Origin: Marinospirillum alkaliphilum DSM 21637 | GTDB lineage: Bacteria; Pseudomonadota; Gammaproteobacteria; Pseudomonadales; Halomonadaceae | Direction of reading: 5' to 3' | DNA: 64,000 bases | Assembly (NCBI RefSeq): GCF_900119735.1 | Contig: NZ_FPJW01000007.1 | Coordinates: 62,001 to 126,000, forward strand | In this document: piece by piece, positions 1 through 38,914 of the stretch | How the letters are laid out: each line of letters starts with the position of its first letter | How positions within the stretch are numbered: the first letter of the stretch is position 1 | The notes under the pieces: model-generated | What the model saw: the letters and a program-made list of their open reading frames with translations, nothing else | The model's database searches: none | Told to the model about the DNA's origin: nothing | Position numbers and translations under genes: made by a program

Positions 1-560
1 AGCAAATCCTGCAGTTCCAGCACACTCAAATTAGCTGTTAAAGCTGCACATAACAGGGATACCGGCTCCTCTACCTGCTGCATGCGCTGCACCACTACGG
101 CCAGCAATACGGCTGAACGCAGTGATTGCATTAAGCTGACAGACTGCCGGGCTACCGGCCAATGTGCAGCACCCAGCAGTGCATCAGGCATGCGTGCCGC
201 CAATAACAACAGGCGCTCAGCCATGTCACGGATGCCACGCGGCAAACCACCGGGTTTGCGGCCTTCATTCAGGGTGTGGTGCAATTTCAGCAGTTGCTGG
301 TAAAAACCCTCCAGCTCCAGAAAAGGGTTTAAATCACTGGTATAACGCTGGCTCTGAACTTCGGTGGTATCACCACCGCGGTTGATGCGTTTTTCATCAG
401 GGTCCAGATAACCCTGCATCAGCAGGGAAGCCACCTGCTGCTCATGTTCAACCTCAGCACCACGCGCCAACAGCAGCACCCGGCTGTGGGTATAAACATT
501 AAAGGGTGCCTTGTCTCCGACAATCAGTTCACCCTGCACCAGTTTTTTCAGCTTACCCAT
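1..560 (-). CDS. HD-GYP-like signalling protein, N-terminal part (runs off left edge)
   Basis: An open frame on the minus strand begins at ATG 558-560 and stays open to base 1, giving the first 186 residues of a longer protein. The N-terminus (LIVGDKAPFNVYTHSRVLLL, then a charged stretch) resembles the domain that precedes HD or HD-GYP phosphohydrolase domains in many gammaproteobacterial c-di-GMP proteins. The last residues seen (ALTANLSVLELQ) lie where an HD-GYP domain normally has its HDIG metal motif, but that motif is not present, so the visible part may be degenerate. A weak purine-rich site precedes the ATG. It diverges from the formate dehydrogenase operon. The catalytic region is outside the window, so the family call is tentative. 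Confidence 0.55.
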   Translation of the reverse strand, partial: MGKLKKLVQGELIVGDKAPFNVYTHSRVLLLARGAEVEHEQQVASLLMQGYLDPDEKRINRGGDTTEVQSQRYTSDLNPFLELEGFYQQLLKLHHTLNEGRKPGGLPRGIRDMAERLLLLAARMPDALLGAAHWPVARQSVSLMQSLRSAVLLAVVVQRMQQVEEPVSLLCAALTANLSVLELQDL

Positions 561-686
561 TCTGCAACGCCCTCACCGGCAACCCATCTGACAGCAGCTT
601 ACCCCATAACACACCAGGTCGCTGCATGACTCTGATGATCCAGCGTAGCCTGCATGCGACAAAAAGCCATGCCTCTCCAGAACACC

Positions 687-701
687 GGGTCAAAATGACC
701 C
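687..701. promoter_or_regulatory. Perfect palindrome GGGTCA-AAA-TGACCC, candidate activator site for the formate dehydrogenase operon
   Basis: Six-base arms are exact inverted copies around AAA. Its centre lies about 104 bp upstream of the start predicted from the -24/-12 element at 772-787, the usual distance for an enhancer-binding protein site. It could equally serve the divergent gene starting at 560. The regulator is unknown. Confidence 0.4.
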
Positions 702-771
702 ATCCACTCTTTTTCCATACCAGTCATACGGATTTCGGGCGGATTTTTCTTCCTCTTCCGCCTTCGATTTC

Positions 772-787
772 TGGCTCCCGGATTGCA
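772..787 (+). promoter_or_regulatory. Sigma-54 (RpoN) -24/-12 promoter candidate for fdhX-fdhA-fdhB-fdhC
   Basis: The sequence TGGCTCCCGGATTGCA matches the RpoN consensus TGGCACG-N4-TTGCW at 10 of 12 defined positions, including the essential GG and GC spaced by 10 bases. The -12 GC is about 50 bases before the fdhX start codon, leaving a normal leader. Formate metabolism genes under sigma-54 are known (E. coli fdhF), so the match is biologically sensible. Confidence 0.55.
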
Positions 788-835
788 AAAGAAAGAAGGT
801 TAAATGACAACTCAGAAGAAAGATGGGGATGAATC

Positions 836-1048
836 ATGCAAAACAATAACACCAGCGCAACGGTTCAGGCTGAACGCCGCCGTTTCCTGAAAGGCCTGGC
901 CAGTGCCTCGGCGGCTGCCGGTCTGGCTGCTGCTGCAGGCACCGCCATGGCCAGCAGCGAACCGGTTGAAACGCCTGTGATGGATGATCAGGTACAGGGT
1001 TACCGCGAATCCGATCACATCCGCGCTTATTACGCCAGTTGCCGCTGA
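836..1048 (+). CDS. fdhX: Formate dehydrogenase region Tat-signal protein (FdhX-type)
   Basis: A 70-residue protein with a twin-arginine signal: RRRFLKG near residues 14-20 followed by an alanine-rich hydrophobic stretch ending near AMA-SS, then a short polar tail containing DHIRAYYASCR. Small proteins of this kind lie immediately upstream of the catalytic subunit in many proteobacterial fdhA loci (for example in Shewanella), where they are described only as formate dehydrogenase region Tat targets; their role is not established. The start is supported by GGGGAT upstream. It is the first gene of the operon, with fdhA starting 26 bases after its stop. Confidence 0.85.
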   Translation: MQNNNTSATVQAERRRFLKGLASASAAAGLAAAAGTAMASSEPVETPVMDDQVQGYRESDHIRAYYASCR

Positions 1049-1074
1049 GCAGACCAGAACAAAGGGGAAACAAG

Positions 1075-3936
1075 ATGCGTTTAACCAGAAAAAAAACGGC
1101 TGCCGAAACCGAAGCAGCTCAGAGTGAAGGACTCGGCGTCTCGCGTCGCGGCTTTCTGAAAGGAACCGGTGTCGCTGCCGGTGGTCTGGCTGCCACCGGC
1201 CTGCTGGGTCAGGGCATGATTCGCAAGGCCGATGCACAGACAGCCAAATCCAGCGCTCCGGTGGAAGTGAAGCGCACCATCTGTACTCACTGCTCGGTAG
1301 GTTGTGGTGTTTATGCCCACGTGCAGGAAGGTGTCTGGACTTACCAGGAGGCCGCCTTTGACCACCCGATCAACAAGGGTGCCCACTGCGCCAAGGGTGC
1401 TGCACTGCGTTACCACGGTCACTCCACCCGTCGCCTGAAATACCCGATGAAGCTGGAAGGCGGCAAGTGGAAAAAACTCTCCTGGGAACAGGCCATCAAC
1501 GAAATCGGCGACAAGATGCTGCAGGTTCGCCAGGAATCCGGTCCTGATTCCATTTTCTGGCTGGGTTCTGCCAAGTTCAACAATGAACAGGCCTACATGT
1601 TCCGTAAAATGGGCTCCCTTTGGGGCACCAACAACGTGGAGCACCAGGCCCGTATCTGTCACTCCACCACAGTGGCCGGTGTAGCCAACACCTGGGGCTA
1701 CGGTGCAATGACCAACAGCTACAACGACATGCAGAACAGCAAGTCGATCCTGTTCATTGGTTCCAACGCCGCTGAAGCCCACCCGGTTTCCATGCAGCAC
1801 ACCCTGCTTGCCAAAGAGCGCAACAACTGCAAGGTGGTGGTGGTTGATCCGCGTTATACCCGTACTGCAGCCAAGGCTGATGAGTATGTACGCATTCGCT
1901 CCGGTTCTGACGTGGCCTTTATCTGGGGTCTGCTGTGGCACATTTTTGCCAACGGCTGGGAAGACAAGGAGTTCATCAAACAGCGTGTTTACGGCATGGA
2001 TGAAATCCGCCGTGAAGTGCAGCAATTCCCACCATCGGTCGTGGAAGACATCACCGGTGTGGGTGAAGCCCAGATGTATAAAGTGGCCAAGATGCTGGCC
2101 GACAACCGCCCCGGCTGTATTGTCTGGTGTATGGGTGGTACTCAGCACACCACCGGTAACAACAACACCCGCGCTTACTGCATTCTGGAGCTGGCACTGG
2201 GTAACGTGGGTAAATCCGGTGCCGGTGCCAACATCTACCGTGGTCACGACAACGTACAGGGTGCCACCGACTTTGGTGTACTGTCCGACTCGCTGCCCGG
2301 TTATTACGGTCTGGCCGAAGGTTCCTGGCGTCACTGGGCCGGTGTCTGGGGTCTGGATTACGAGTGGATTCAAAACCGTTTTGACCAGAACACCTACCGT
2401 GGTGGCAAACCCATGCACACCAGTGGTATCACTGTGTCTCGCTGGGTCGACGGGGTACTGGAAGACAAGGAAAAGATCTCCCAGAAAGACAACCTGCGTG
2501 TTGCCCTCTACTGGGGTCATGCAGTGAACTCCCAGACCCGTGGCCCGGAAATGCGCGAAGCCATGAAAAAGCTGGACATGATGGTGATTGTCGACCCCTA
2601 TCCGACGGTTGCCGCTGTCATGAACGACCGCACCGATGGTGTGTACCTGCTGCCGGCTTGTACCCAGTTTGAAACCTACGGCTCGGTGACTGCTTCCAAC
2701 CGCTCCATTCAATGGCGCGACAAGGTGATTGAGCCTCACTTTGAGTCCAAAACCGACCACGAGATCATGTATCTGCTGTCGAAAAAACTGGGCTACGAAA
2801 AAGAGCTGTTCAAGAACATCACCATCAATGGCAACGAGCCGCTGATTGAAGACATCGTGCGTGAATACAACCGTGGCATGTGGACCATCGGTTACACCGG
2901 TCAGAGCCCGGAGCGTCTGAAGTACCATCAGCAGAACTGGCATGCCTTTGACTTCACCAGCCTGCGTGCCGTTGGCACTGAAGCAGATGGTGATTTTTAC
3001 GGTCTGCCGTGGCCTTGCTGGGGTACGCCAGAAATGAAACACCCTGGCACCCACATCCTGTATGACACCAGCCTGGCCGTTAAGGACGGTGGCCTGGGCT
3101 TCCGTGCCAACTTCGGTGTGGAGCGTAACGGTGTCACCCTGCTGGCCGAAGGCTCCGCTCCGGTGGGTAACGAAATCGGTGACGGTCACCCGGAAATTTC
3201 TGCCAACCTGCTGAAACAGCTCGGCTGGTGGAATGATCTGACCGCCGAGGAAAAAGCAGCTGCTGAAGGCAAGGACTGGAAAACCGACCTCTCCGGTGGT
3301 ATCCAGCGTGTCTCCATCAAGCATGGTGTGGCGCCCTTTGGTAACGGCAAGGCCCGGACCATTGTGTGGACCTTCCCGGATGCCATTCCAAAACACCGCG
3401 AGCCGCTCTACACCACCCGTCGTGATCTGGTTGCCAAATACCCAACCTGGGATGACTTTGAAGCCCTGTACCGTCTGCCGACCCTCTACAAGTCGATTCA
3501 GCAGCGTGACACTTCAGCCGAATTCCCGATCATTCTGACCTCCGGTCGTCTGGTTGAGTATGAAGGTGGTGGTGATGAAACCCGCTCCAACCCCTGGCTG
3601 GCAGAACTGCAGCAGGACATGTTTGTGGAGATCAACCCCTTCAATGCCAACAGCCTGCGCATTCGTGATGGTCAGGATGTCTGGGTTTATGGGCCGGAAG
3701 GCGGCAAGGCCAGGGTCAAGGCACTGGTCACCAATCGGGTGGACCGCAACGTGGCCTTTATGCCTTTCCACTTTGGTGGTTTCTTCCAGGGCGAGAACCT
3801 GCGTAACCGCTATCCGGAAGGCAGTGCACCCTATGTATCCGGTGAAGCCGTGAATACCGTAACCACCTACGGTTACGACCCGGTCACCCTGATGCAGGAA
3901 ACCAAAACCACTGTCTGCCGTATTGAAGCAGCCTGA
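1075..3936 (+). CDS. fdhA: Formate dehydrogenase catalytic subunit alpha (molybdopterin, Tat-exported)
   Basis: This 953-residue molybdopterin oxidoreductase oxidises formate to CO2 in the periplasm and passes electrons to FdhB. The ATG at 1075 is preferred over upstream codons because AAAGGGGAAA precedes it and the Tat motif SRRGFLKG then falls at residues 23-30. A [4Fe-4S] site is formed by C70-x2-C73-x3-C77-x27-C105. At the Mo ligand position where E. coli FdnG has selenocysteine, this protein has Cys195 (in ARICHSTT), so no selenocysteine machinery is needed. The molybdopterin-binding and C-terminal dinucleotide-binding regions (TSGRLVEYEGGG, FHFGGFFQGENLR) are intact. It is followed 17 bases later by fdhB. 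Family assignment is firm; the length and neighbours fit the FDH3/FdhABC class rather than the 1015-residue FdnG. Confidence 0.95.
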   Translation: MRLTRKKTAAETEAAQSEGLGVSRRGFLKGTGVAAGGLAATGLLGQGMIRKADAQTAKSSAPVEVKRTICTHCSVGCGVYAHVQEGVWTYQEAAFDHPINKGAHCAKGAALRYHGHSTRRLKYPMKLEGGKWKKLSWEQAINEIGDKMLQVRQESGPDSIFWLGSAKFNNEQAYMFRKMGSLWGTNNVEHQARICHSTTVAGVANTWGYGAMTNSYNDMQNSKSILFIGSNAAEAHPVSMQHTLLAKERNNCKVVVVDPRYTRTAAKADEYVRIRSGSDVAFIWGLLWHIFANGWEDKEFIKQRVYGMDEIRREVQQFPPSVVEDITGVGEAQMYKVAKMLADNRPGCIVWCMGGTQHTTGNNNTRAYCILELALGNVGKSGAGANIYRGHDNVQGATDFGVLSDSLPGYYGLAEGSWRHWAGVWGLDYEWIQNRFDQNTYRGGKPMHTSGITVSRWVDGVLEDKEKISQKDNLRVALYWGHAVNSQTRGPEMREAMKKLDMMVIVDPYPTVAAVMNDRTDGVYLLPACTQFETYGSVTASNRSIQWRDKVIEPHFESKTDHEIMYLLSKKLGYEKELFKNITINGNEPLIEDIVREYNRGMWTIGYTGQSPERLKYHQQNWHAFDFTSLRAVGTEADGDFYGLPWPCWGTPEMKHPGTHILYDTSLAVKDGGLGFRANFGVERNGVTLLAEGSAPVGNEIGDGHPEISANLLKQLGWWNDLTAEEKAAAEGKDWKTDLSGGIQRVSIKHGVAPFGNGKARTIVWTFPDAIPKHREPLYTTRRDLVAKYPTWDDFEALYRLPTLYKSIQQRDTSAEFPIILTSGRLVEYEGGGDETRSNPWLAELQQDMFVEINPFNANSLRIRDGQDVWVYGPEGGKARVKALVTNRVDRNVAFMPFHFGGFFQGENLRNRYPEGSAPYVSGEAVNTVTTYGYDPVTLMQETKTTVCRIEAA

Positions 3937-3953
3937 TCCCTGAGGAGAACACC

Positions 3954-4592
3954 ATGGCTCGTATGAAATTTTTGTGTGACTCAGAGCGCTGCATCGACTG
4001 CAACGGTTGTGTCACGGCCTGTAAAAACGCCAACGAAACCGAATGGGGCATTCAGCGCCGCCGCGTGGTTACCCTGGATGACGGTGAAATCGGCAAGGAA
4101 GTTTCCATCTCCGTGGCCTGCATGCATTGTTCTGATGCACCCTGCATGGCCGTTTGCCCGACCAACTGTTTCTACCCCACTGAAGACGGTCTGATCCTGC
4201 ACAACAAGGACACCTGCATCGGTTGCGGTTACTGCCTCTACGCCTGCCCCTTCGGCGCTCCACAGTTCCCGAAACAGGGTGCCTTTGGTGCCCGCGGCAA
4301 GATGGACAAGTGCACCTTCTGTGCCGGTGGCCCGGAAGCCGATCCGGCACTGGAAGCCCAGAAGTACGGCGCCAACCGTCTGAAAGACGGCAAGTTGCCC
4401 CTCTGTGCCGAAATGTGCTCCACCAAGGCACTGCTGGCGGGTGATGCACAGGAAGTTTCAGACATCTTCCGTGAGCGGGTCGTTTACCGTGGTCACAGAA
4501 ATGGTGCCTGGGGTGCCACCCAGCAGGAACCCGGCCTGAGCGAGCTGGCTCGTCAGGCTGCCGAACTGGCCACTGATGCAGCGAGAAGCTAA
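3954..4592 (+). CDS. fdhB: Formate dehydrogenase iron-sulfur subunit beta (FDH3 type)
   Basis: A 212-residue ferredoxin-like electron-transfer subunit linking FdhA to the membrane cytochrome FdhC. Four [4Fe-4S] cluster motifs are visible: C13-x2-C16-x2-C19-x3-C23, C56-x2-C59-x4-C64-x3-C68, C88-x2-C91-x2-C94-x3-C98, and a fourth from C120/C123 plus the LPLCAEMC pair further on. Unlike E. coli FdnH it has no C-terminal membrane anchor, which is typical of the shorter FDH3 beta subunits. GAGGAG precedes the ATG. The gene is 17 bases after fdhA and 2 bases before fdhC, so the three are co-translated. Confidence 0.95.
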   Translation: MARMKFLCDSERCIDCNGCVTACKNANETEWGIQRRRVVTLDDGEIGKEVSISVACMHCSDAPCMAVCPTNCFYPTEDGLILHNKDTCIGCGYCLYACPFGAPQFPKQGAFGARGKMDKCTFCAGGPEADPALEAQKYGANRLKDGKLPLCAEMCSTKALLAGDAQEVSDIFRERVVYRGHRNGAWGATQQEPGLSELARQAAELATDAARS

Positions 4593-4594
4593 TC

Positions 4595-5659
4595 ATGAAA
4601 TACCGCAAGCGTAACCGCGGCTGGTTCAGCCTGGTTGCGCTGCTGCTGGCAGGCTGTTTATTCAGCTTGCCTTCAGTGGCCCAACCTCAGGGCGGCCCAC
4701 CCGCAGATGCCCGCAAGGAGCTGATGCAAACCTTGCCGGGTACCACATCCGACTACTGGCGGAATGTGCAGGGCGGCGTTACCGGTACCACCAGCTCCCG
4801 CAGCCCGGGTGCCGAAACGCTGATCATGGTTCAGGGTGAACAGTGGCGCAACTGGCGCAACCACTGGGTATCCCCCGGTGGCCTGATTGCGCTGGGTGGC
4901 AGTGCTGCCGGCATCCTGCTGTTCTGGCTGCTGGTCGGCCCGGTCAAGCTGGAGCATCCGCGCACCGGTCGCAAGATCGAGCGCTGGACCCGGATGGATC
5001 GCACCATTCACTGGTATGTGGCCAGCCTGTTCATCATCCTGGGTTTCACCGGGCTGATGCTCTTGTATGCCAAGTGGTTTCTGCAGCCGATCCTGCCCGG
5101 TGGAGTCTGGGCGGCCTTCATGACCGCAGCCAAGAACATCCACAACTACCTTGGGCCCCTGTTTGCACTGGGACTGCTGGCCATGATCCTGAAATGGATT
5201 CGCCACAATGCCTTTAACCGGGTGGACCTGAAGTGGTTTGCCAAGGGTGGCGGTATTGTCGGTAAAGGTCATCCCCAGGCTGGCTACCTGAATGGTGGTG
5301 AAAAGGTCTGGTTCTGGATTGTCACCTTTGTCGGCCTGACGGTGGTGATTTCCGGCTTGATTGCCGATTTCCCCAACTTCGGCCAGAGCCGTGAAACCAT
5401 GCAGATCACCCTGCTGGTGCATGGCATCGGCGCGCTGATTCTGATGGCTGCCTCTTTTGGCCACATCTACATCGGCACCGCCGGAACCGAGGGTGCTTTT
5501 GAAGGCATGAAAACCGGTTACGTGGATGAAAGCTGGGCCAAACAGCATCATGACCTCTGGTATCACGCTGTGAAGGATCAGGCCATCGACGAAGCCGAGC
5601 TGGAAGCCCGCAAAGCGGGTAACAGTCAGACAGCAGCCAATCCAACTCAGGCCTCCTGA
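4595..5659 (+). CDS. fdhC: Formate dehydrogenase cytochrome b556 subunit gamma
   Basis: A 354-residue integral membrane cytochrome b that anchors the complex and transfers electrons to quinone. It has an N-terminal signal-like segment (residues about 9-30), then about five hydrophobic helices from residue 90 onward. Candidate haem ligands are the histidines in TIHWYVASL, NIHNYLGPL and LLVHGIGAL, as in the FdnI/FdoI family; the protein is longer than E. coli FdnI (about 217 residues) because of the N-terminal extension typical of the FdhC class. It starts 2 bases after fdhB and is followed by a strong terminator at 5676, ending the operon. Confidence 0.93.
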   Translation: MKYRKRNRGWFSLVALLLAGCLFSLPSVAQPQGGPPADARKELMQTLPGTTSDYWRNVQGGVTGTTSSRSPGAETLIMVQGEQWRNWRNHWVSPGGLIALGGSAAGILLFWLLVGPVKLEHPRTGRKIERWTRMDRTIHWYVASLFIILGFTGLMLLYAKWFLQPILPGGVWAAFMTAAKNIHNYLGPLFALGLLAMILKWIRHNAFNRVDLKWFAKGGGIVGKGHPQAGYLNGGEKVWFWIVTFVGLTVVISGLIADFPNFGQSRETMQITLLVHGIGALILMAASFGHIYIGTAGTEGAFEGMKTGYVDESWAKQHHDLWYHAVKDQAIDEAELEARKAGNSQTAANPTQAS

Positions 5660-5798: not shown

Positions 5799-6122
5799 AT
5801 GAAAGCCCTTGATCCCCAGATCCAGACTGAAATTGAAGCAGCAGCCTTCCGCCGCCTGCTGCAACACCTGGATAACAACAAAGACGTGCAGAACATCGAT
5901 CTGATGATTCTGGCGGACTTCTGCCGCAATTGCCTGGCCAAATGGCTGATGGCCGCCGCCGAAGATCAGGACGTGGAGCTCAACTACGATGAAGCCCGCG
6001 AAATGGTCTATGGCATGCCTTATGAAGAGTGGAAGGACTTGTATCAGCAACCGGCCACCGAAGCTCAGTTAAAGGCTTTTGCCGAGCGTGAAGCCGCCCG
6101 CAAGGCACGGGGTGATCACTGA
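5799..6122 (+). CDS. DUF1244 family protein
   Basis: A 107-residue acidic, soluble, helical protein with the conserved signature FCRNCLAKW and YGMPYEEWK of the DUF1244 family, whose function is unknown. The two cysteines of FCRNC may bind a metal, but this is inference. AGGAGT precedes the ATG. Its stop codon overlaps the start of moaB by one base, so it is co-translated with molybdenum cofactor genes; this association is worth noting because the family has no assigned role. Confidence 0.9.
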   Translation: MKALDPQIQTEIEAAAFRRLLQHLDNNKDVQNIDLMILADFCRNCLAKWLMAAAEDQDVELNYDEAREMVYGMPYEEWKDLYQQPATEAQLKAFAEREAARKARGDH

Positions 6123-6643
6123 TGGCACAGGACTTCATTCCGTTGCAGATTGCTGTACTGACCCTGTCCGACACCCGCACCCTGGCCGAAGACAAATCCG
6201 GTGACACCCTGATCAAGTTATTGCAGGAAGCCGGGCACCAACTGGCCGAGCGCCAGCTGATCCCGGATGATGTGTATCAGATGCGCGCCGTGGTCAGCCA
6301 GTGGATTGCTGATCCCGCCATTCAGGTGATCCTGACCACCGGCGGCACCGGTTTTACCGGTCGGGACTCCACCCCGGAAGCACTGCGCCCGCTGTTTGAT
6401 ACCGAAATTGAAGGTTTTGGTGAGCTGTTCCGTCAGGTGTCTTATGACGAAATCGGTTCATCCACCATCCAGTCTCGCTGCCTGGCCGGACTCGCTAATC
6501 GCACCGCCATCTTCTGCCTGCCCGGCTCCACCGGCGCCTGCAAAACCGGCTGGAACAACATCCTGCAGGAACAACTGGATGCCCGCCACAAACCCTGTAA
6601 CTTTGTTGGTATCCTGCTGCATGGCAAACAACTGCACAGCTGA
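6122..6643 (+). CDS. moaB: Molybdenum cofactor biosynthesis protein MoaB
   Basis: A 173-residue MoaB/MogA-family protein that binds molybdopterin and adenylylates it before metal insertion. The family signature TTGGTGFTGRDSTPEAL is present near residues 73-90, and CLPGSTGACKTGWNNIL near residues 135-151 matches the substrate-binding loop. Length agrees with E. coli MoaB (170). The start codon overlaps the stop of the DUF1244 gene (TGATG). The cofactor product is needed by FdhA encoded just upstream. Confidence 0.95.
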   Translation: MAQDFIPLQIAVLTLSDTRTLAEDKSGDTLIKLLQEAGHQLAERQLIPDDVYQMRAVVSQWIADPAIQVILTTGGTGFTGRDSTPEALRPLFDTEIEGFGELFRQVSYDEIGSSTIQSRCLAGLANRTAIFCLPGSTGACKTGWNNILQEQLDARHKPCNFVGILLHGKQLHS

Positions 6644-6664
6644 TTCACACTCAAGAGCCTCAAC

Positions 6665-7864
6665 ATGACCCAGACACCTGCCCTGATCCCCGTTGCCACT
6701 GCACTTGAACACATGCTGGAAACCCTGCACCCCTTGCAGGAAGTCGAGTGGTTGCCGCTGAGGCAGGTTGCCGGTCGGGTCACGGCGCAGTCCATCAACG
6801 CCACGGTGAATGTGCCACCGGCTGACAACTCCGGCATGGATGGTTATGCCCTGCATCACCGGGATGCCGGTCAGCCACTGCAGGTTTCACAGCGCATCAC
6901 CGCTGGCACTGCACCTCAGCCTTTGCAAGCGGGCACCTGTGCACGGATTTTCACCGGTGCGGAGATTCCGCCTGGAGCTGACTGTGTGGTGATGCAGGAA
7001 GTGGTCGAGATCAGTGCCGATGGCAAGGCAGTGATTCCGGCAGATATCCGTGCAGGGCAGAATGTTCGCCCTTGCGGGCAGGACATCAAAACCGGTGAAG
7101 AACTGCTGCCGGCAGGCACCCGGCTGGATTATCGGCACCTGGGGCTGCTGGCCAGCAGTGGTTTAAACAAGATTCTGGTATTCCGGCGTCCGAAAGTGGC
7201 ATTGCTGGCCACCGGTGATGAACTGGTGGAACCCGGCCAGCCGCTGTTGCCGGGGCAGATTTACAACTCCAATCGCCCATTGCTGACCGGCCTGCTGCAT
7301 GCGCTGGGCGCTGAAGTGCTGGATCTGGGACCGATTGCGGATACCCGCGCAGCAACCGAGCAGGCATTACGCCTGGCCGCTGAACAGGCAGACCTTATTT
7401 TATCCACAGGGGGTGTTTCGGTCGGCGAAGAGGATCACATCAAACCGGCGGTGGAAGCACTCGGGCAACTGAGGCTGTGGAAACTGGCCATGAAACCCGG
7501 TAAACCTGTGGCCTTCGGCCAGATCGGCAAGGCGGCCTTTCTGGGCTTGCCGGGTAATCCGGTGTCGGTGTTTGTCGGAGCCCAGGTGTTTTTACGCCCG
7601 CTGCTGGCTCGATTGGCCGGGCAAACTGCATCAGGAGCCCTGCCACTGGAGCAGGGAGTGGCCGGTTTCAGCGCCAGCACCCAGATCCGTCAGGAATACC
7701 TGCGAGTGCGTGCTGAACTGCATCAGGGCCAGTGGCAACTGCAGGCCTTCAGCAATCAGAACTCCGGTGTGCTCAGCTCAGTAGTCTGGGCCAATGCACT
7801 GGCCATTTTGCCACCGGGCAGCAACATCCAGCCCGGTGATCCAATAGCGTTCATGCGCTACTGA
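6665..7864 (+). CDS. moeA: Molybdopterin molybdenumtransferase MoeA
   Basis: A 399-residue enzyme that inserts molybdate into adenylylated molybdopterin to form Moco. Hallmarks are DNSGMDGYAL near residue 56, STGGVSVGEEDHIK near residue 245, MKPGKPVAFG and GLPGNPVSVFVG near residues 275-305, all in the order found in MoeA/gephyrin E domain proteins. It follows moaB by 21 bases. The gene ends at a repeat-like palindromic intergenic element shared with the convergent phosphoesterase gene. Confidence 0.96.
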   Translation: MTQTPALIPVATALEHMLETLHPLQEVEWLPLRQVAGRVTAQSINATVNVPPADNSGMDGYALHHRDAGQPLQVSQRITAGTAPQPLQAGTCARIFTGAEIPPGADCVVMQEVVEISADGKAVIPADIRAGQNVRPCGQDIKTGEELLPAGTRLDYRHLGLLASSGLNKILVFRRPKVALLATGDELVEPGQPLLPGQIYNSNRPLLTGLLHALGAEVLDLGPIADTRAATEQALRLAAEQADLILSTGGVSVGEEDHIKPAVEALGQLRLWKLAMKPGKPVAFGQIGKAAFLGLPGNPVSVFVGAQVFLRPLLARLAGQTASGALPLEQGVAGFSASTQIRQEYLRVRAELHQGQWQLQAFSNQNSGVLSSVVWANALAILPPGSNIQPGDPIAFMRY

Positions 7865-12265: not shown

Positions 12266-15200
12266 TCAGCGCGGCATCACCCGAACATTGCCCAGTTGCT
12301 CCAGCGGTTGCGGCTGCCCCAGATAAAAACCCTGGGCAAAGTCCACATCCAGTTGCTGCAGCACCTCCAGGGTTGCTGCATTTTCAACAAACTCGGCAAT
12401 GGTTTTCAGCCCCATGATGTGACCGATGTTGTTGATGGATGCCACCATCGCCTGGTCAATGGGGTTATCGGCCAGCTCCCGGATGAAAATGCCGTCAATT
12501 TTCAAATAGTCCACCGGCAGCTGTTTCAGATAGCCAAAAGAAGACAGACCACTGCCGAAGTCATCCAGCGCAAAACGACAGCCGAGTTTTTTTAATTCGG
12601 TAATAAAATCCCGCGCCAGCATCAGATCAGCCATGGCGGTGGTTTCAGTGATTTCAAAGCAGATGTAATGGGCGGGCACCCGATGCCGCTCAATCTGCTC
12701 ACGAATGACCTGCAGGCAATGGGGATCACCGATGGAGGCACCGGACAGGTTGATGGCACACAACAGCGGTCGATTGCTGGAGCGCAACTGATCGCCCATC
12801 CAGGCCAGGGTATTACGAATCACCCAGGCGTCAATTTGTGGCATCAGGTTAAAGCGCTCTGCCGAGGGTATGAAGGCACCCGGTGGCACCACCTGCCCCT
12901 GTGGGTCTTGCAAGCGCAACAGGATTTCGTAGTGGGGCAACAGTGGTTCTGTCGTATTTAATGGCAACACTGGCTGACAATAAAGGCGAAACAGATCCTG
13001 ATCCAGGGCTTGCTGGATGCGATTCACCCATTGCACCTGCTGGGTCTGCTGTTGTACTTCACTGCTATCCGGGGTGTACAGGTGCACCCGGTTGCGCCCC
13101 AGATTTTTAGCCGCATAACAGGCTGTGTCTGCCCAGGTCAGCACTTCATCCAGATCACCACAGGGTGACTGCAAGGGCACCAGCCCGATACTGACTCCGA
13201 CACTGAACACTCGCCCTTCCCAGCTGAAGCGGAAATCACACACCACCTGACGCAGTTTCTCGGCTATATCCTGGCCGCGCTGCAGTGGGCAATGACTCAG
13301 CAGCACACCAAACTCATCGCCCCCCAGCCGAGCCAGCGTATCGCTCTGGCGCAGCAGTGGTTTCAGCGTGTCCGCCAGTTGCCGCAACAACAGATCACCG
13401 GCGCGGTGACCACAGGTGTCGTTCACAATCTTGAACTGATCCAGATCCATGTAACACAGGATGTGCTCACTCTGGTTTTGACCAACATCCTGAATCATCG
13501 CCTGTAACCGATGCTCAAATTCACGGCGATTGACCAGACCCGTCAAGGTGTCATGGATCGCCTGAAAACTCAGTTGCTGCTGCAGATGGTTGCTGTGGGT
13601 AACATCCTGCAGCACCAGCACCCAACCGATTGGATGCCCCTGATGGTCATGCAAGGGAGCAGGAGTCACTTCCACATCCGCACGTGCGCCTTTACTGGAT
13701 AGCAACTGCAAACACTGTTTGCGACGACTCTGACACAGTGACTCCAGATTCAGCGGCTCTTGATCGCCTCCCTGCAGTGACAACACCTGCTGCAGGGGCT
13801 TGCCATAAGCCTGGCGTGATGGCCATCCGGTCAACTGGGCTGCCACCGGGTTCAGGTAGATGGTTTGAAACAGCGCATCACAGGTGATGACGCCTTCGGT
13901 AATGGCCTCCAGTGTCACCTGAGCCAGCTCAGAATGGCGATGTAACTGTGCCTCCATGCGCTTGCGTTCACTGATATCACGAATCACAGCGCTGTATTGC
14001 ACCCCGCCTTCGGTCGGGCTGGCGGCAGTGGTGATTTCAACATAAAAAGCTGAACCATCTTGCCTGCGCACCACCAACTCATGAGGCCCTTCGCTGGCAC
14101 CGGCAGCCAGTGCCGGGAACAGCTGGTCCGGCTGAATGCGCGGGTAAAGATGCTGGCAATCCTGATGCAACAACATACGGGTCGGCTGACCAACCAGCTC
14201 ATGCCGGGCTTTACCGAACAGATGTTCTGCCCCGGGATTGATACTGGTGATGATGCCCTGCCCGGTGAAGGTGATCACCCCGTCACGGATATCCCGCACA
14301 ATCAGACGGGTACGACTCACCATGCGATTAAGCTTGTCCATCACCCGGTTGTACTGGGCGGCAATCTGACCCACTTCGGTAAAAGGCTCCACCGGCACCC
14401 GCTGCTGCAGGTCCTCACTTTTTTCCTGCCTGGCCATGGCCATCAGCAGTTCATTCAGCTCGGTACGCGCCCCGTGTTCAGACACATTCAGGCCTTCCTG
14501 TTCACCGGTTGCACTGACGCGCAAAGGAATCCAGCGGCGCAGCACCAGCAGAAACACCAGCGCCAGGGTGAAAGAGTAAAGGCCGATGGCCAGCACACCC
14601 AGTAACTGCACTTGCAACTGGGCAAACCACCCCAGCCCCGTATCCAGTTGTTCGGCCCGGCCAAACAAGGCTACGGCCAGTGTTCCCCAGATGCCTGCCG
14701 CCAGATGCACCGGCACCGCAGAAATGGCGTCGTCCAGTCGCCAGCGTAATAACAATCGCTCTGCCAGCAGCATACAAAGGCTGCCAATCACACCAATCAA
14801 TAAAGCCGCAGGCGTTGAAACGGCATGTGCAGAAGCCGTGACTGCCACCAGTCCTGCCAGGGTGCCGTTAATGGTCAAGGGGGTAACACGCTGCCCTTCC
14901 TGCCATCGCTGACTCACCAGCAACGCCACGATGCCACCGGCAGCACCGGCCAGCAGGGTGTTGATGATGATACCGGGGACGGCAGCAGTGAAGGCCAGGG
15001 TGCTGCCACCATTAAAACCCAGCCAACCAAAGATGAAGAACAGCATCCCCAGCATCGCCAACGGCAGATTGCTGCCTGGAATCTCCTGCACGCGACCTTC
15101 GGCATCAAAACGCCCTTGCCTGGGACCAATCACCAGCACCGCAGCCAGGGCCACCCAACCACCCACACTGTGCACCACGGTACTGCCCGCAAAATCCACA

Positions 15201-15667
15201 AACCCCAGGCGCTCCAACCAGCCTTCATGGCCATTGAATGCGCTGCTCCAGGCCCAGTGCCCAACCACTGGGTAGACCAGCACCGTAATTAATACGGTTA
15301 ACATCACGTAGGTGAAAAAACGGCTGCGCTCAGCAATGGCACCTGAAACAATGGTTGCCGCCGTGGCACAGAAGGTCAGTTGAAAAAAGAAAAACCCGGC
15401 TTCATGCCAACCCAGCTGACTGAAGTCGGCCGCAATCCAGCGTGCTTCCGGCCACCAGCCGGAAGGATTACCAAACATCAAAGCAAAACCAACCAGCCAG
15501 TAGAGCACCACAACCACCAGCAGATCGAAGGCATTTTTCAAGGCAACATTGATGGCGTTCTTGCTACGAGTCAGCCCCGACTCCAGACACAAAAACCCAC
15601 CCTGCATCAGCAAAACCAGTATCGCCGCCAACAACAACCACAGCGCATCAATTGCTTCCTTTTCCAT
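12266..15667 (-). CDS. Ammonium channel (Amt) fused to PAS-PAS-GGDEF-EAL, predicted ammonium-sensing c-di-GMP enzyme
   Basis: A 1133-residue fusion. Residues 1 to about 390 form an 11-helix Amt/Rh channel: ESGLTRSKN near residue 28, DFAGSTVVHSVGGW with the first pore histidine near residue 170, and AVPVHLAAGIWG with the second pore histidine near residue 320. Then come a linker, two PAS domains (about 455-560 and 575-690), a GGDEF domain with intact LARLGGDEFG near residue 780, and an EAL domain in which EAL reads EIL near residue 914 but the catalytic FEITET, DDFGSG and LKID motifs remain. Amt-kinase fusions that sense ammonium are known (Kuenenia Amt5), so ammonium-controlled c-di-GMP turnover is the likely role. 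GGGAG precedes the ATG. A sigma-54 element lies upstream at 15753. Confidence 0.93.
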   Translation of the reverse strand: MEKEAIDALWLLLAAILVLLMQGGFLCLESGLTRSKNAINVALKNAFDLLVVVVLYWLVGFALMFGNPSGWWPEARWIAADFSQLGWHEAGFFFFQLTFCATAATIVSGAIAERSRFFTYVMLTVLITVLVYPVVGHWAWSSAFNGHEGWLERLGFVDFAGSTVVHSVGGWVALAAVLVIGPRQGRFDAEGRVQEIPGSNLPLAMLGMLFFIFGWLGFNGGSTLAFTAAVPGIIINTLLAGAAGGIVALLVSQRWQEGQRVTPLTINGTLAGLVAVTASAHAVSTPAALLIGVIGSLCMLLAERLLLRWRLDDAISAVPVHLAAGIWGTLAVALFGRAEQLDTGLGWFAQLQVQLLGVLAIGLYSFTLALVFLLVLRRWIPLRVSATGEQEGLNVSEHGARTELNELLMAMARQEKSEDLQQRVPVEPFTEVGQIAAQYNRVMDKLNRMVSRTRLIVRDIRDGVITFTGQGIITSINPGAEHLFGKARHELVGQPTRMLLHQDCQHLYPRIQPDQLFPALAAGASEGPHELVVRRQDGSAFYVEITTAASPTEGGVQYSAVIRDISERKRMEAQLHRHSELAQVTLEAITEGVITCDALFQTIYLNPVAAQLTGWPSRQAYGKPLQQVLSLQGGDQEPLNLESLCQSRRKQCLQLLSSKGARADVEVTPAPLHDHQGHPIGWVLVLQDVTHSNHLQQQLSFQAIHDTLTGLVNRREFEHRLQAMIQDVGQNQSEHILCYMDLDQFKIVNDTCGHRAGDLLLRQLADTLKPLLRQSDTLARLGGDEFGVLLSHCPLQRGQDIAEKLRQVVCDFRFSWEGRVFSVGVSIGLVPLQSPCGDLDEVLTWADTACYAAKNLGRNRVHLYTPDSSEVQQQTQQVQWVNRIQQALDQDLFRLYCQPVLPLNTTEPLLPHYEILLRLQDPQGQVVPPGAFIPSAERFNLMPQIDAWVIRNTLAWMGDQLRSSNRPLLCAINLSGASIGDPHCLQVIREQIERHRVPAHYICFEITETTAMADLMLARDFITELKKLGCRFALDDFGSGLSSFGYLKQLPVDYLKIDGIFIRELADNPIDQAMVASINNIGHIMGLKTIAEFVENAATLEVLQQLDVDFAQGFYLGQPQPLEQLGNVRVMPR

Positions 15668-36551: not shown

Positions 36552-36706
36552 GAGCCGAATACCTCGATCAATCGGATCAGTTATTGAGCCGATTATGCTT
36601 TATATTCGGCTCAACGGCCAACACCCAAGACGCCTGCCACCAAAATCAGGATAATGGCGGCCATTTCTTCCTGATCATCCACACCCTTTCACTCGGTACC
36701 CACTGC

Positions 36707-38914
36707 ATGGAAATCAAGGTTAATTTTCTCGACAATCTGCGTCTGGAAGCAAAGTTTGACGACTTCACCGTCATTGCTGACCAGCCCATCCGTTACAAGG
36801 GTGATGGTTCAGCACCCAGCCCCTTTGATTATTTTCTGGCCTCTTCGGCGCTGTGTGCGGCCTATTTTGTGAAGGTCTACTGCAACACCCGCAACCTGCC
36901 AACAGACAATATCCGGCTGTCGCAGAACAACCTGGTGGACCCGGAAGATCGTTACAACCAGATCTTCAAGATTCAGGTGGAGTTGCCGGAGCATTTTTCC
37001 GACAAGGACAAACAGGGCATCCTGCGCTCGATTGAACGATGCACGGTGAAAAAGGTGGTGCAGACCGGCCCGGAGTTTCGCATCGAACAGGTGGACAATC
37101 TGGATGAGGACGCCCAGGCCCTGCTGATGGCCATGCCGGAAGGTGAAAACCGCACCTGGATTGAAGGCAAGGATGCACCACTGGAAGACACCATCGCCCG
37201 CATGACCGGCATTCTGTCCGACCTTGGCATGAAAATTGAAATTGCCTCCTGGCGCAATATCGTGCCACACGTCTGGTCACTGCACATTCGTGACGCCGCT
37301 TCCCCCATGTGTTTCACCAACGGCAAGGGTGCCACCAAGGAAGCGGCCCTGTGTTCAGCGCTGGGTGAGTTCATTGAGCGCCTGAGCTGCAATTTCTTTT
37401 ACAACGATCAGTTCTTTGGCACCGAAATCGCCAACAGTGCCTTTGTGCACTACCCGAATGAACAATGGTTCAAGCCGGGACCCAGGGATCAGTTGCCCAA
37501 AGGGTTGCTGGACGCCCACTGCCTGAGCATTTACAACCCGGAAGGCGAGCTGCGCGCATCGCACCTGATTGACACCAATTCCGGTCGTGCTGATCGAGGC
37601 ATCTGTGCATTGCCTTTTGTGCGCCATTCCGATGGTGAAACGGTTTATTTTCCTTCCAACCTGATTGAAAACCTGTTTCTCAGCAATGGCATGAGTGCCG
37701 GTAACACCCTGGCGGAAGCGCAGGTACAGTGCCTGTCGGAAATTTTTGAGCGCGCAGTGAAAAAGGCTGTGATCGAAAACGAGCTGGCCTTGCCGGATGT
37801 GCCCGAGTCGGTGTTGCAGCAATACCCCGGTATCGTGGAAGGGGTTCGTGCACTGGAGCAGCAGGGCTTCCCGGTACTGATCAAGGATGCCTCACTGGGC
37901 GGCCAGTTCCCGGTGGCCTGTGTCACCCTGATGAACCCGCGCACCGGCGGTGTATTTGCTTCTTTTGGCGCCCATCCCAGCATGCACATCGCCATTGAAC
38001 GCAGCCTCACCGAGCTGTTGCAGGGACGCAGTTTTGAAGGGTTGAACGACCTGCCACCACCCACCTTCAACTCGATGGAGGTGACGGAACCCAACAACTT
38101 TGTGGAACACTTCATCGATTCATCCGGGCTGGTGTCCTGGCGCTTTTTCAGCAGCCGTTCCGAATATGACTTCTGCCACTGGGATTTTTCCGGTGATGGA
38201 GAGGCGGGTAGCAATGAAGCAGAAGCAACGACCCTGTTTGGCATTCTCGAGGAGCTGGAGCTGGAAAGCTACATGGCCGTTCACCAGGATCTCGGTGCAC
38301 CGGTCTGCCGCATTCTGGTGCCGGGTTATTCGGAAATCTATCCGGTTGAAGACCTGATCTGGGACAACACCAACAAGGCGCTGATGTTCCGTGAGGACAT
38401 TCTCAACCTGCACCAGTTGGATGATCAACAGCTGCAGGATCTGCTTGAGCGACTGGAAGAAAGTCAGCTTGATCCCTACATGGATATCATCACCCTGATC
38501 GGTATCGAGTTTGATGAAAACACGGCCTGGGGACAACTCACCATCCTGGAACTGAAACTGCTGATCCAACTGGCCTTGCAAGACCATGAAGGTGCGCTGG
38601 AAGGCGTGGAAAGCTTCCTGCAATACAACACCAACACGGTGGAGCGCGGCCTTTTTTATCGGGCAGTCCAGGCGGTGCTGGAAATCACCCTGGATGAAGA
38701 GCTGGCGCTGGACGACTTTTTACCCAACCTGCAACGCATGTTTGGTGAAGCCGTGATGGCAGCAGTGGTGGGCTCGGTGGCCGGTGAAGTGCGTTTTCAT
38801 GGTTTAACGCCAACCAGCCTGCAACTGGAAGGCCTGGACAGGCACCAGCGCCTGATCGCCAGCTACCAGAAACTCCATGCGGCACGGGCAGCACGCGCGG
38901 GCATTAATGGCTGA
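36707..38914 (+). CDS. ycaO: OsmC-domain/YcaO-domain fusion protein
   Basis: A 735-residue protein. Residues 1-140 form an OsmC-like domain (MEIKVNFLDNLRLEAKFDDF in parts, then the SSALCAAYFVKVYC cysteine motif), and residues about 170-580 are a YcaO domain with FTNGKGATKEAALCSALGEFIERLS and AQVQCLSEIFERAVKKAV, the ATP-binding signatures. YcaO enzymes activate backbone amides with ATP; E. coli YcaO (586 residues) promotes S12 methylthiolation with RimO. The extra N-terminal OsmC domain occurs in several Vibrio and Shewanella relatives. The start at 36707 has only a weak upstream site. Confidence 0.92.
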   Translation: MEIKVNFLDNLRLEAKFDDFTVIADQPIRYKGDGSAPSPFDYFLASSALCAAYFVKVYCNTRNLPTDNIRLSQNNLVDPEDRYNQIFKIQVELPEHFSDKDKQGILRSIERCTVKKVVQTGPEFRIEQVDNLDEDAQALLMAMPEGENRTWIEGKDAPLEDTIARMTGILSDLGMKIEIASWRNIVPHVWSLHIRDAASPMCFTNGKGATKEAALCSALGEFIERLSCNFFYNDQFFGTEIANSAFVHYPNEQWFKPGPRDQLPKGLLDAHCLSIYNPEGELRASHLIDTNSGRADRGICALPFVRHSDGETVYFPSNLIENLFLSNGMSAGNTLAEAQVQCLSEIFERAVKKAVIENELALPDVPESVLQQYPGIVEGVRALEQQGFPVLIKDASLGGQFPVACVTLMNPRTGGVFASFGAHPSMHIAIERSLTELLQGRSFEGLNDLPPPTFNSMEVTEPNNFVEHFIDSSGLVSWRFFSSRSEYDFCHWDFSGDGEAGSNEAEATTLFGILEELELESYMAVHQDLGAPVCRILVPGYSEIYPVEDLIWDNTNKALMFREDILNLHQLDDQQLQDLLERLEESQLDPYMDIITLIGIEFDENTAWGQLTILELKLLIQLALQDHEGALEGVESFLQYNTNTVERGLFYRAVQAVLEITLDEELALDDFLPNLQRMFGEAVMAAVVGSVAGEVRFHGLTPTSLQLEGLDRHQRLIASYQKLHAARAARAGING

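Follow-up and report, generated by a model that had tools for sequence, protein, structure and literature searches.

A likely sigma-54 promoter with an upstream activator site before the fdhXABC formate dehydrogenase operon of Marinospirillum alkaliphilum, and its probable two-component activator

Here we analysed a 64-kb stretch of the Marinospirillum alkaliphilum genome (C21:62001-126000, hereafter the window; the genome itself is called the host), near the left edge of which lies a formate dehydrogenase (FDH) operon, fdhX-fdhA-fdhB-fdhC, spanning 836-5659 on the plus strand. The genes and elements on which the following analysis is based are these:

1..560, minus strand: HD_5-domain gene (Pfam), running past the left window edge, with its start-codon end at 560
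655..672, plus strand: 18-bp block TGCGACAAAAAGCCATGC, identical in the host and in its relative G004, about 31 bp upstream of the next feature
687..701, plus strand: inverted repeat GGGTCA-AAA-TGACCC (GGGTCAAAATGACCC), the upstream activator site (UAS), a putative dimer site for a tup-linked response-regulator bEBP
772..787, plus strand: sigma-54 -24/-12 element TGGCTCCCGGATTGCA, 10/12 matches, with a start predicted near 798
836..1048, plus strand: fdhX, small formate dehydrogenase region TAT target (TIGR02811 over cut-off)
1075..3936, plus strand: fdhA, molybdopterin (Mo or W) formate dehydrogenase large subunit (Pfam domains over cut-off)
3954..4592, plus strand: fdhB, FDH3 beta iron-sulfur subunit (NF038355 over cut-off)
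4595..5659, plus strand: fdhC, cytochrome b gamma subunit (TIGR01583 over cut-off)

The NCBIfam FDH alpha models rank best for fdhA but score below their cut-off, and the protein shares 86-87% identity with the FdhA of three named Nitrincola species. In the host the HD_5 gene sits between TorD and fdhX (also L025, 13400-14560), while the three Nitrincola loci have their TorD and fdhX matches close together with no match to the HD_5 gene, which likewise had no match in the 80 FDH loci examined (the best 80 of at least 593 FDH matches). Downstream of fdhC, a DUF1244 gene (Pfam) followed by MoaB/MogA-like and MoeA-like genes (named by eye) occupies 5799-7864 on the plus strand, the latter two looking like further cofactor genes adjoining the operon. 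Two other proteins of the window were noted by eye: one of 1133 aa (12266-15667, minus strand) resembles an Amt ammonium transporter joined to PAS, GGDEF and EAL domains, and the other, OsmC-like and 776 aa long (36584-38914, plus strand), has a fused part resembling YcaO.

The 275-bp gap between the HD_5 gene and fdhX holds both the UAS and the -24/-12 element. A preliminary description of this DNA had read the element as GG-N10-GC with 10 of 12 consensus positions, and re-reading of the sequence bears this out: GG lies at 773-774 and GC at 785-786 with ten nucleotides between, and the agreement with the consensus used (TGGCACG-N4-TTGCW) is 10/12. Its perfect 15-bp palindrome needs a slight correction, as the two 6-bp arms are indeed perfect but the 3-nt AAA spacer is not self-complementary. 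The enhancer position about 100 bp upstream stands as well, the centre of the UAS (694) being 91 bp away from the -12 GC and some 103 bp from the start expected near 798, within the 70-200 bp range. An activator site should be a dyad some 70-200 bp upstream that is repeated at co-regulated sigma-54 promoters, and we found this one again before DUF3305 and, in relatives, before the FeS gene and tupA. The host has one rpoN match (PF04552, E 3.5e-71), and a sigma-70-type promoter scan of window positions 1-2000 gave 0 matches against 1.1 in shuffled sequences. Block 655-672 is possibly a weak second half-site, although a scan allowing up to 3 mismatches did not pick it up as a UAS; neither of the two UAS of the host fdh region has a further site within 80 bp at that threshold.

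How much of this could arise by chance depends on what is counted. In the 275-bp gap the expected number is 1.3e-5 for the exact UAS arms, 0.055 for any perfect 6-N3-6 repeat and 0.016 for a GG-N10-GC element of at least 10/12 on one strand. Over 64 kb about 17 perfect 6-N3-6 repeats are expected, the window has 8 sigma-54 elements of at least 10/12 on both strands, and a sigma-54 scan at up to 2 mismatches found 16 against 21.7 expected. In the host genome GGGTCANNNTGACCC at up to 1 mismatch occurs 11 times against 9 for the reversed control and exact GGGWCANNNTGWCCC twice against 3 in the control, and over 58 relatives GGGWCAAAATGACCC at up to 1 mismatch gave 45 matches against 36 for the reversed control and exact GGGWCANNNTGWCCC 66 against 37 per strand (summed). 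With host totals no higher than expected from the controls and the 58-genome totals weak as evidence, we dropped palindrome counts, and the case is built on position and conservation instead.

The preliminary description had proposed searching the genome for further copies of the palindrome and for bEBP genes. In the 3.14-Mb host genome there is one other exact GGGWCANNNTGWCCC site, GGGACAAAATGACCC at C21:57707, and it precedes DUF3305-DUF3306-FeS-TorD, an accessory operon 5 kb upstream of the fdhX module that has its own GG-N10-GC sigma-54 element (CGGCACATGGCTTGCT, 10/12). Among the seven genus members searched, one other genome bears FdhA (G004), and it has kept a UAS-like site (CAAAATGACCC) and a GG-N10-GC element before both fdhX and DUF3305, so that the 11-mer CAAAATGACCC is present in four promoters of the two species. 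The G004 sequence aligned with the host fdhX -24/-12 element is TGGCCTCTTGCTTGCA (9/12), and the left arm of its fdhX palindrome has decayed, with 2 mismatches. Before fdhX the UAS centre is 91 bp from the -12 GC in the host and 92 bp in G004; before DUF3305 this distance is 125 bp in either genome. FdhA and DUF3305 are 30 kb apart in G004, and the upstream neighbour of fdhX is a 2-isopropylmalate synthase-like frame (by eye) rather than the HD gene of the host; the regulatory module thus stays with the fdh operon although the upstream neighbour changes.

Examination of more distant loci placed the same elements before other genes. Our sample was the best 80 of at least 593 FDH matches, from which loci were left out of the upstream counts (15 for DUF3305, 10 for FeS, 32 for FdhX and 1 for FdhA) when the gene could not be identified on the plus strand or was preceded by less than 200 bp. 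At up to 1 mismatch the UAS is found upstream of DUF3305 in 26/65 loci and upstream of FeS in 17/70, against 1.0% and 1.8%, respectively, of random control windows taken within the same 80 loci; these include many related Vibrio and Shewanella, and the counts are of non-independent events. The site is absent from the other 39/65 DUF3305 and 53/70 FeS upstreams, and the reversed pattern occurs in 0/65 and 0/70. Sigma-54 elements of at least 10/12 precede DUF3305 in 29/65 loci (2.4% of control windows) and FeS in 23/70 (2.2%). Spacing is tight where both elements occur, the UAS centre lying 71-73 bp from the -12 GC for 10 of the 15 DUF3305 pairs and 90-91 bp from it for 12 of the 15 FeS pairs. 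At five loci (L071, L101, L114, L203 and L205) additional UAS-like copies with 0-2 mismatches stand 21-35 or 61 bp away from the principal site, a pattern suggestive of binding by two or more dimers. A search for a regular tandem second UAS around 30 sites turned up additional copies at 30-35 or 61 bp for some of them. For the remaining fdhX genes of the best 80 loci the UAS was found at up to 1 mismatch in 0/48 upstreams and a sigma-54 element in 1/48, and since the UAS is missing there the host fdhX promoter appears to be an older module that was relocated in this lineage.

The statement that no FhlA-type regulator lies in the window can be extended to the genome: the window has no bEBP match, and none of the nine bEBPs of the host passes the FhlA cut-off. 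Only one strong bEBP match, at C21:9399, is on the contig of the window. On NCBIfam the NifA, NtrC and NorR models were passed, and the other six bEBPs had no over-cut-off match among those listed. The protein that we propose as activator is the following:

G000:C10:66513-67913: candidate activator bEBP, receiver-AAA+-Fis (PF00072, PF00158, PF02954)

Its AAA+ domain carries GAFTGA. It scores 251 bits on the FhlA model, whose cut-off is 830 (the other eight have no FhlA match at E<=1e-120), and its best models are AtoC and NtrC, all 25 models shown of 110 being below their cut-offs. It adjoins a sensor kinase with HisKA/HATPase, an sCache_3_3 domain and HAMP, and the two genes are divergent from tupABC-like genes, mobA, mobB, moeA, moaC/D and moaE (the cofactor genes named by eye). 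TupA is the sole model matched by its protein (203 bits, cut-off 400), while TupB scores 197 bits against a cut-off of 320 and TupC, not the best match of its protein, 102 against 400; by these scores the genes would encode a transporter related to TupABC, perhaps for tungstate or molybdate. A receiver-type bEBP, of which the candidate is the homologue in the host, also occurs within 10 kb of fdhA in some of the best 80 loci, in Nitrincola, Vibrio and Neptuniibacter as well as in Ferrimonas, Thioalkalivibrio and uncultured Gammaproteobacteria. Two PAS-type bEBPs of the host, L004 on the contig of the window and the Cys-rich L009 beside sulfate-type transport genes, were set aside because no fdh or cofactor genes surround them (by eye) and also because the fdh-neighbouring bEBPs are of another type. 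With its Cys-rich PAS-like N-terminus (by eye; G000:C20:45358-45861, minus strand) and no NCBIfam match at E<=1e-120, L009 is possibly a redox- or metal-sensing regulator. A further bEBP, L001 (G000:C13:10160), is over the NifA cut-off, which suggests that nitrogen fixation is possible in the host.

The candidate (the C10-type bEBP) was then followed across 58 relatives. Calling it at 52% identity or more (lowest kept G037 at 52%, next match G021 at 47%), we found it in nine genomes (G000, G004, G008, G010, G012, G031, G033, G035 and G037), all of them among the 22 with FdhA, and the same 22 of 58 carry both FdhA and DUF3305. In the host genus bEBP, DUF3305 and FdhA are all present in G000 and G004 and all absent from six other members, two of which are only 77-87% complete. 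A UAS at up to 1 mismatch lies before DUF3305 or between the DUF3306 and FeS matches in 9/9 genomes with the regulator and in at most 1/13 FDH-positive genomes without it, the one being G055, which has one possible site and, like G050, no recognised FeS gene; three other UAS matches in the 13 fall inside gene matches. Exact UAS sites within 10 kb of bEBP, DUF3305 or fdhA were found in 7/9 against 0/13 genomes, or 11/16 against 0/20 sites, the other 5/16 of the nine genomes lying elsewhere, and as these nine are related, Fisher p-values overstate the independence of the comparison. The kinase and tup-like genes adjoin the bEBP in 8/9 genomes; for G037 the 16 kb surrounding the bEBP gave no match to a kinase or a tup gene. 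In four of the genomes (G008, G010, G031 and G033) the tupA-bEBP gap holds the UAS and a sigma-54 element directed toward tupA. The host tupA promoter has an 11/12 element with the UAS only at 2 mismatches, and the G004 gap a 9/12 element with the UAS at 3 mismatches. A single TGA interrupts the bEBP frame of G031, and that of G012 is split.

Taken together, the two-species footprint, the second host promoter and the recurrence in other Gammaproteobacteria support the sigma-54 promoter and enhancer proposed in the preliminary description: a sigma-54 promoter with an upstream activator site is likely to precede fdhX, and its activator is probably the tup-linked two-component bEBP. We hold with considerable confidence the whole reading, in which sigma-54 and this bEBP at the UAS would drive fdhXABC, the accessory operon and probably tupABC. 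Under such a scenario fdhXABC would be transcribed by sigma-54 RNA polymerase from 772-787, and a response-regulator bEBP bound at the 687-701 palindrome would switch it on, the most likely one being that of G000:C10:66513-67913 with its Cache-HAMP-HisKA kinase. The same protein would drive DUF3305-DUF3306-FeS-TorD from the second UAS and sigma-54 promoter, and with tupABC probably in the regulon, formate oxidation, enzyme maturation and W/Mo cofactor supply would respond jointly. Most of the relatives looked at have no such promoter at fdhX, which is probably reached there by read-through from the upstream ones; in this lineage fdhXABC stands apart from the accessory genes, with its own copy of the module. 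As for the signal, the Cache domain may sense a small ligand, conceivably formate, and from the neighbouring genes we would guess at formate or metal supply.

Other explanations for the same sequences must be weighed. We consider it unlikely that the promoter belongs to sigma-54 while a different bEBP, such as PAS-type L004 or L009, or a regulator outside the bEBP family occupies the palindrome: the host does encode nine bEBPs, neither L004 nor L009 could be assigned over cut-off at E<=1e-120 and L004 is about 53 kb from the palindrome on the same contig, yet the palindrome is present in the tupA-bEBP gap of four genomes and tracks the C10-type regulator across the 22 FDH-positive genomes, in a presence/absence profile that covers this one type of the nine host bEBPs. 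Mere coincidence of a random palindrome with a random GG-N10-GC near an fdh operon would agree with the many 6-N3-6 repeats expected in 64 kb and with pattern counts equal to controls in the host genome, but it is barely credible given an 11-mer shared by four promoters of two species and a UAS in 26/65 DUF3305 upstreams of the best 80 of at least 593 matches, against 1% of control windows.

A mobility-shift assay using sigma-54 without core polymerase is generally a weak test of promoter recognition. This bears on the view that sigma-54 acts indirectly only, fdhX being read from a sigma-70 promoter and the elements being remnants. Such a view draws on the fdhX element being only 10/12 and on the lack of any shift of the VP1510 promoter by purified RpoN in V. 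parahaemolyticus, from which the authors infer indirect control (PMC9817140). The empty sigma-70-type scan and the position-specific, tightly spaced recurrence in distant genera speak against it, and we judge it very improbable. Beyond the direct sigma-54 reading lies a broader proposal that we believe about as readily as we doubt it, namely that an ancient gammaproteobacterial sigma-54 regulon, governed by one Cache two-component system that senses an external signal, formate or W/Mo supply, and acts through RGGWCA-N3-TGWCCY enhancers, co-induces metal uptake, cofactor synthesis, maturation and FDH, and that fdhXABC broke away carrying or gaining a copy of the module. If true, formate respiration would be tied to tungsten/molybdenum uptake under one signal.

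Placing these results among known systems requires taking several regulators into account. In E. coli, FhlA activates formate-metabolism genes with sigma-54 from a distal UAS and senses formate via GAF domains, whereas our candidate belongs to the receiver type and the FDH of this operon is respiratory. In its receiver, AAA+ with GAFTGA and Fis HTH it resembles the AtoC/NtrC/ZraR-type bEBPs, but its neighbourhood of tupABC-like and Moco genes is different. In V. nereis a bEBP 55% identical to the candidate adjoins, with a kinase, the FDH cluster, and may be the counterpart of the VC1521/VC1522 two-component system, which we take to be located beside fdh in V. cholerae. VC1522 appears in a response-regulator list and is divergent from VC1523, and the accessible portions of these sources (PMC4441509, PMC6855506) give no target or function for it.

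The closest precedent is in V. parahaemolyticus, where deletion of rpoN lowers VP1510-VP1515 by log2 3.17-4.75, and where VP1508 and VP1510, both with -24/-12 motifs, are flagged as peaks from V. cholerae ChIP-seq (PMC9817140). Like the host genes, VP1508 and VP1510-VP1515 comprise an FeS protein, a chaperone, a hypothetical protein and the FDH large, FeS and cytochrome subunits, but no activator or UAS is named for the Vibrio cluster in that text (PMC9817140), whereas the host fdhX has its own promoter and UAS. Two other sources treat sigma-54 and formate enzymes in general terms as far as their accessible text goes (PMC12316311, PMC3162934), and the literature covered, mostly outside subscription journals and in part accessible, names no activator or UAS for this FDH. 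Sigma-54 control of this FDH is already reported from Vibrio. Within the literature searched, what seems to be new lies in the UAS, in assigning the activator and in the relocation of the module; for an RpoN-linked FDH the comparison supplies an activator open to testing, together with a DNA site and more targets.
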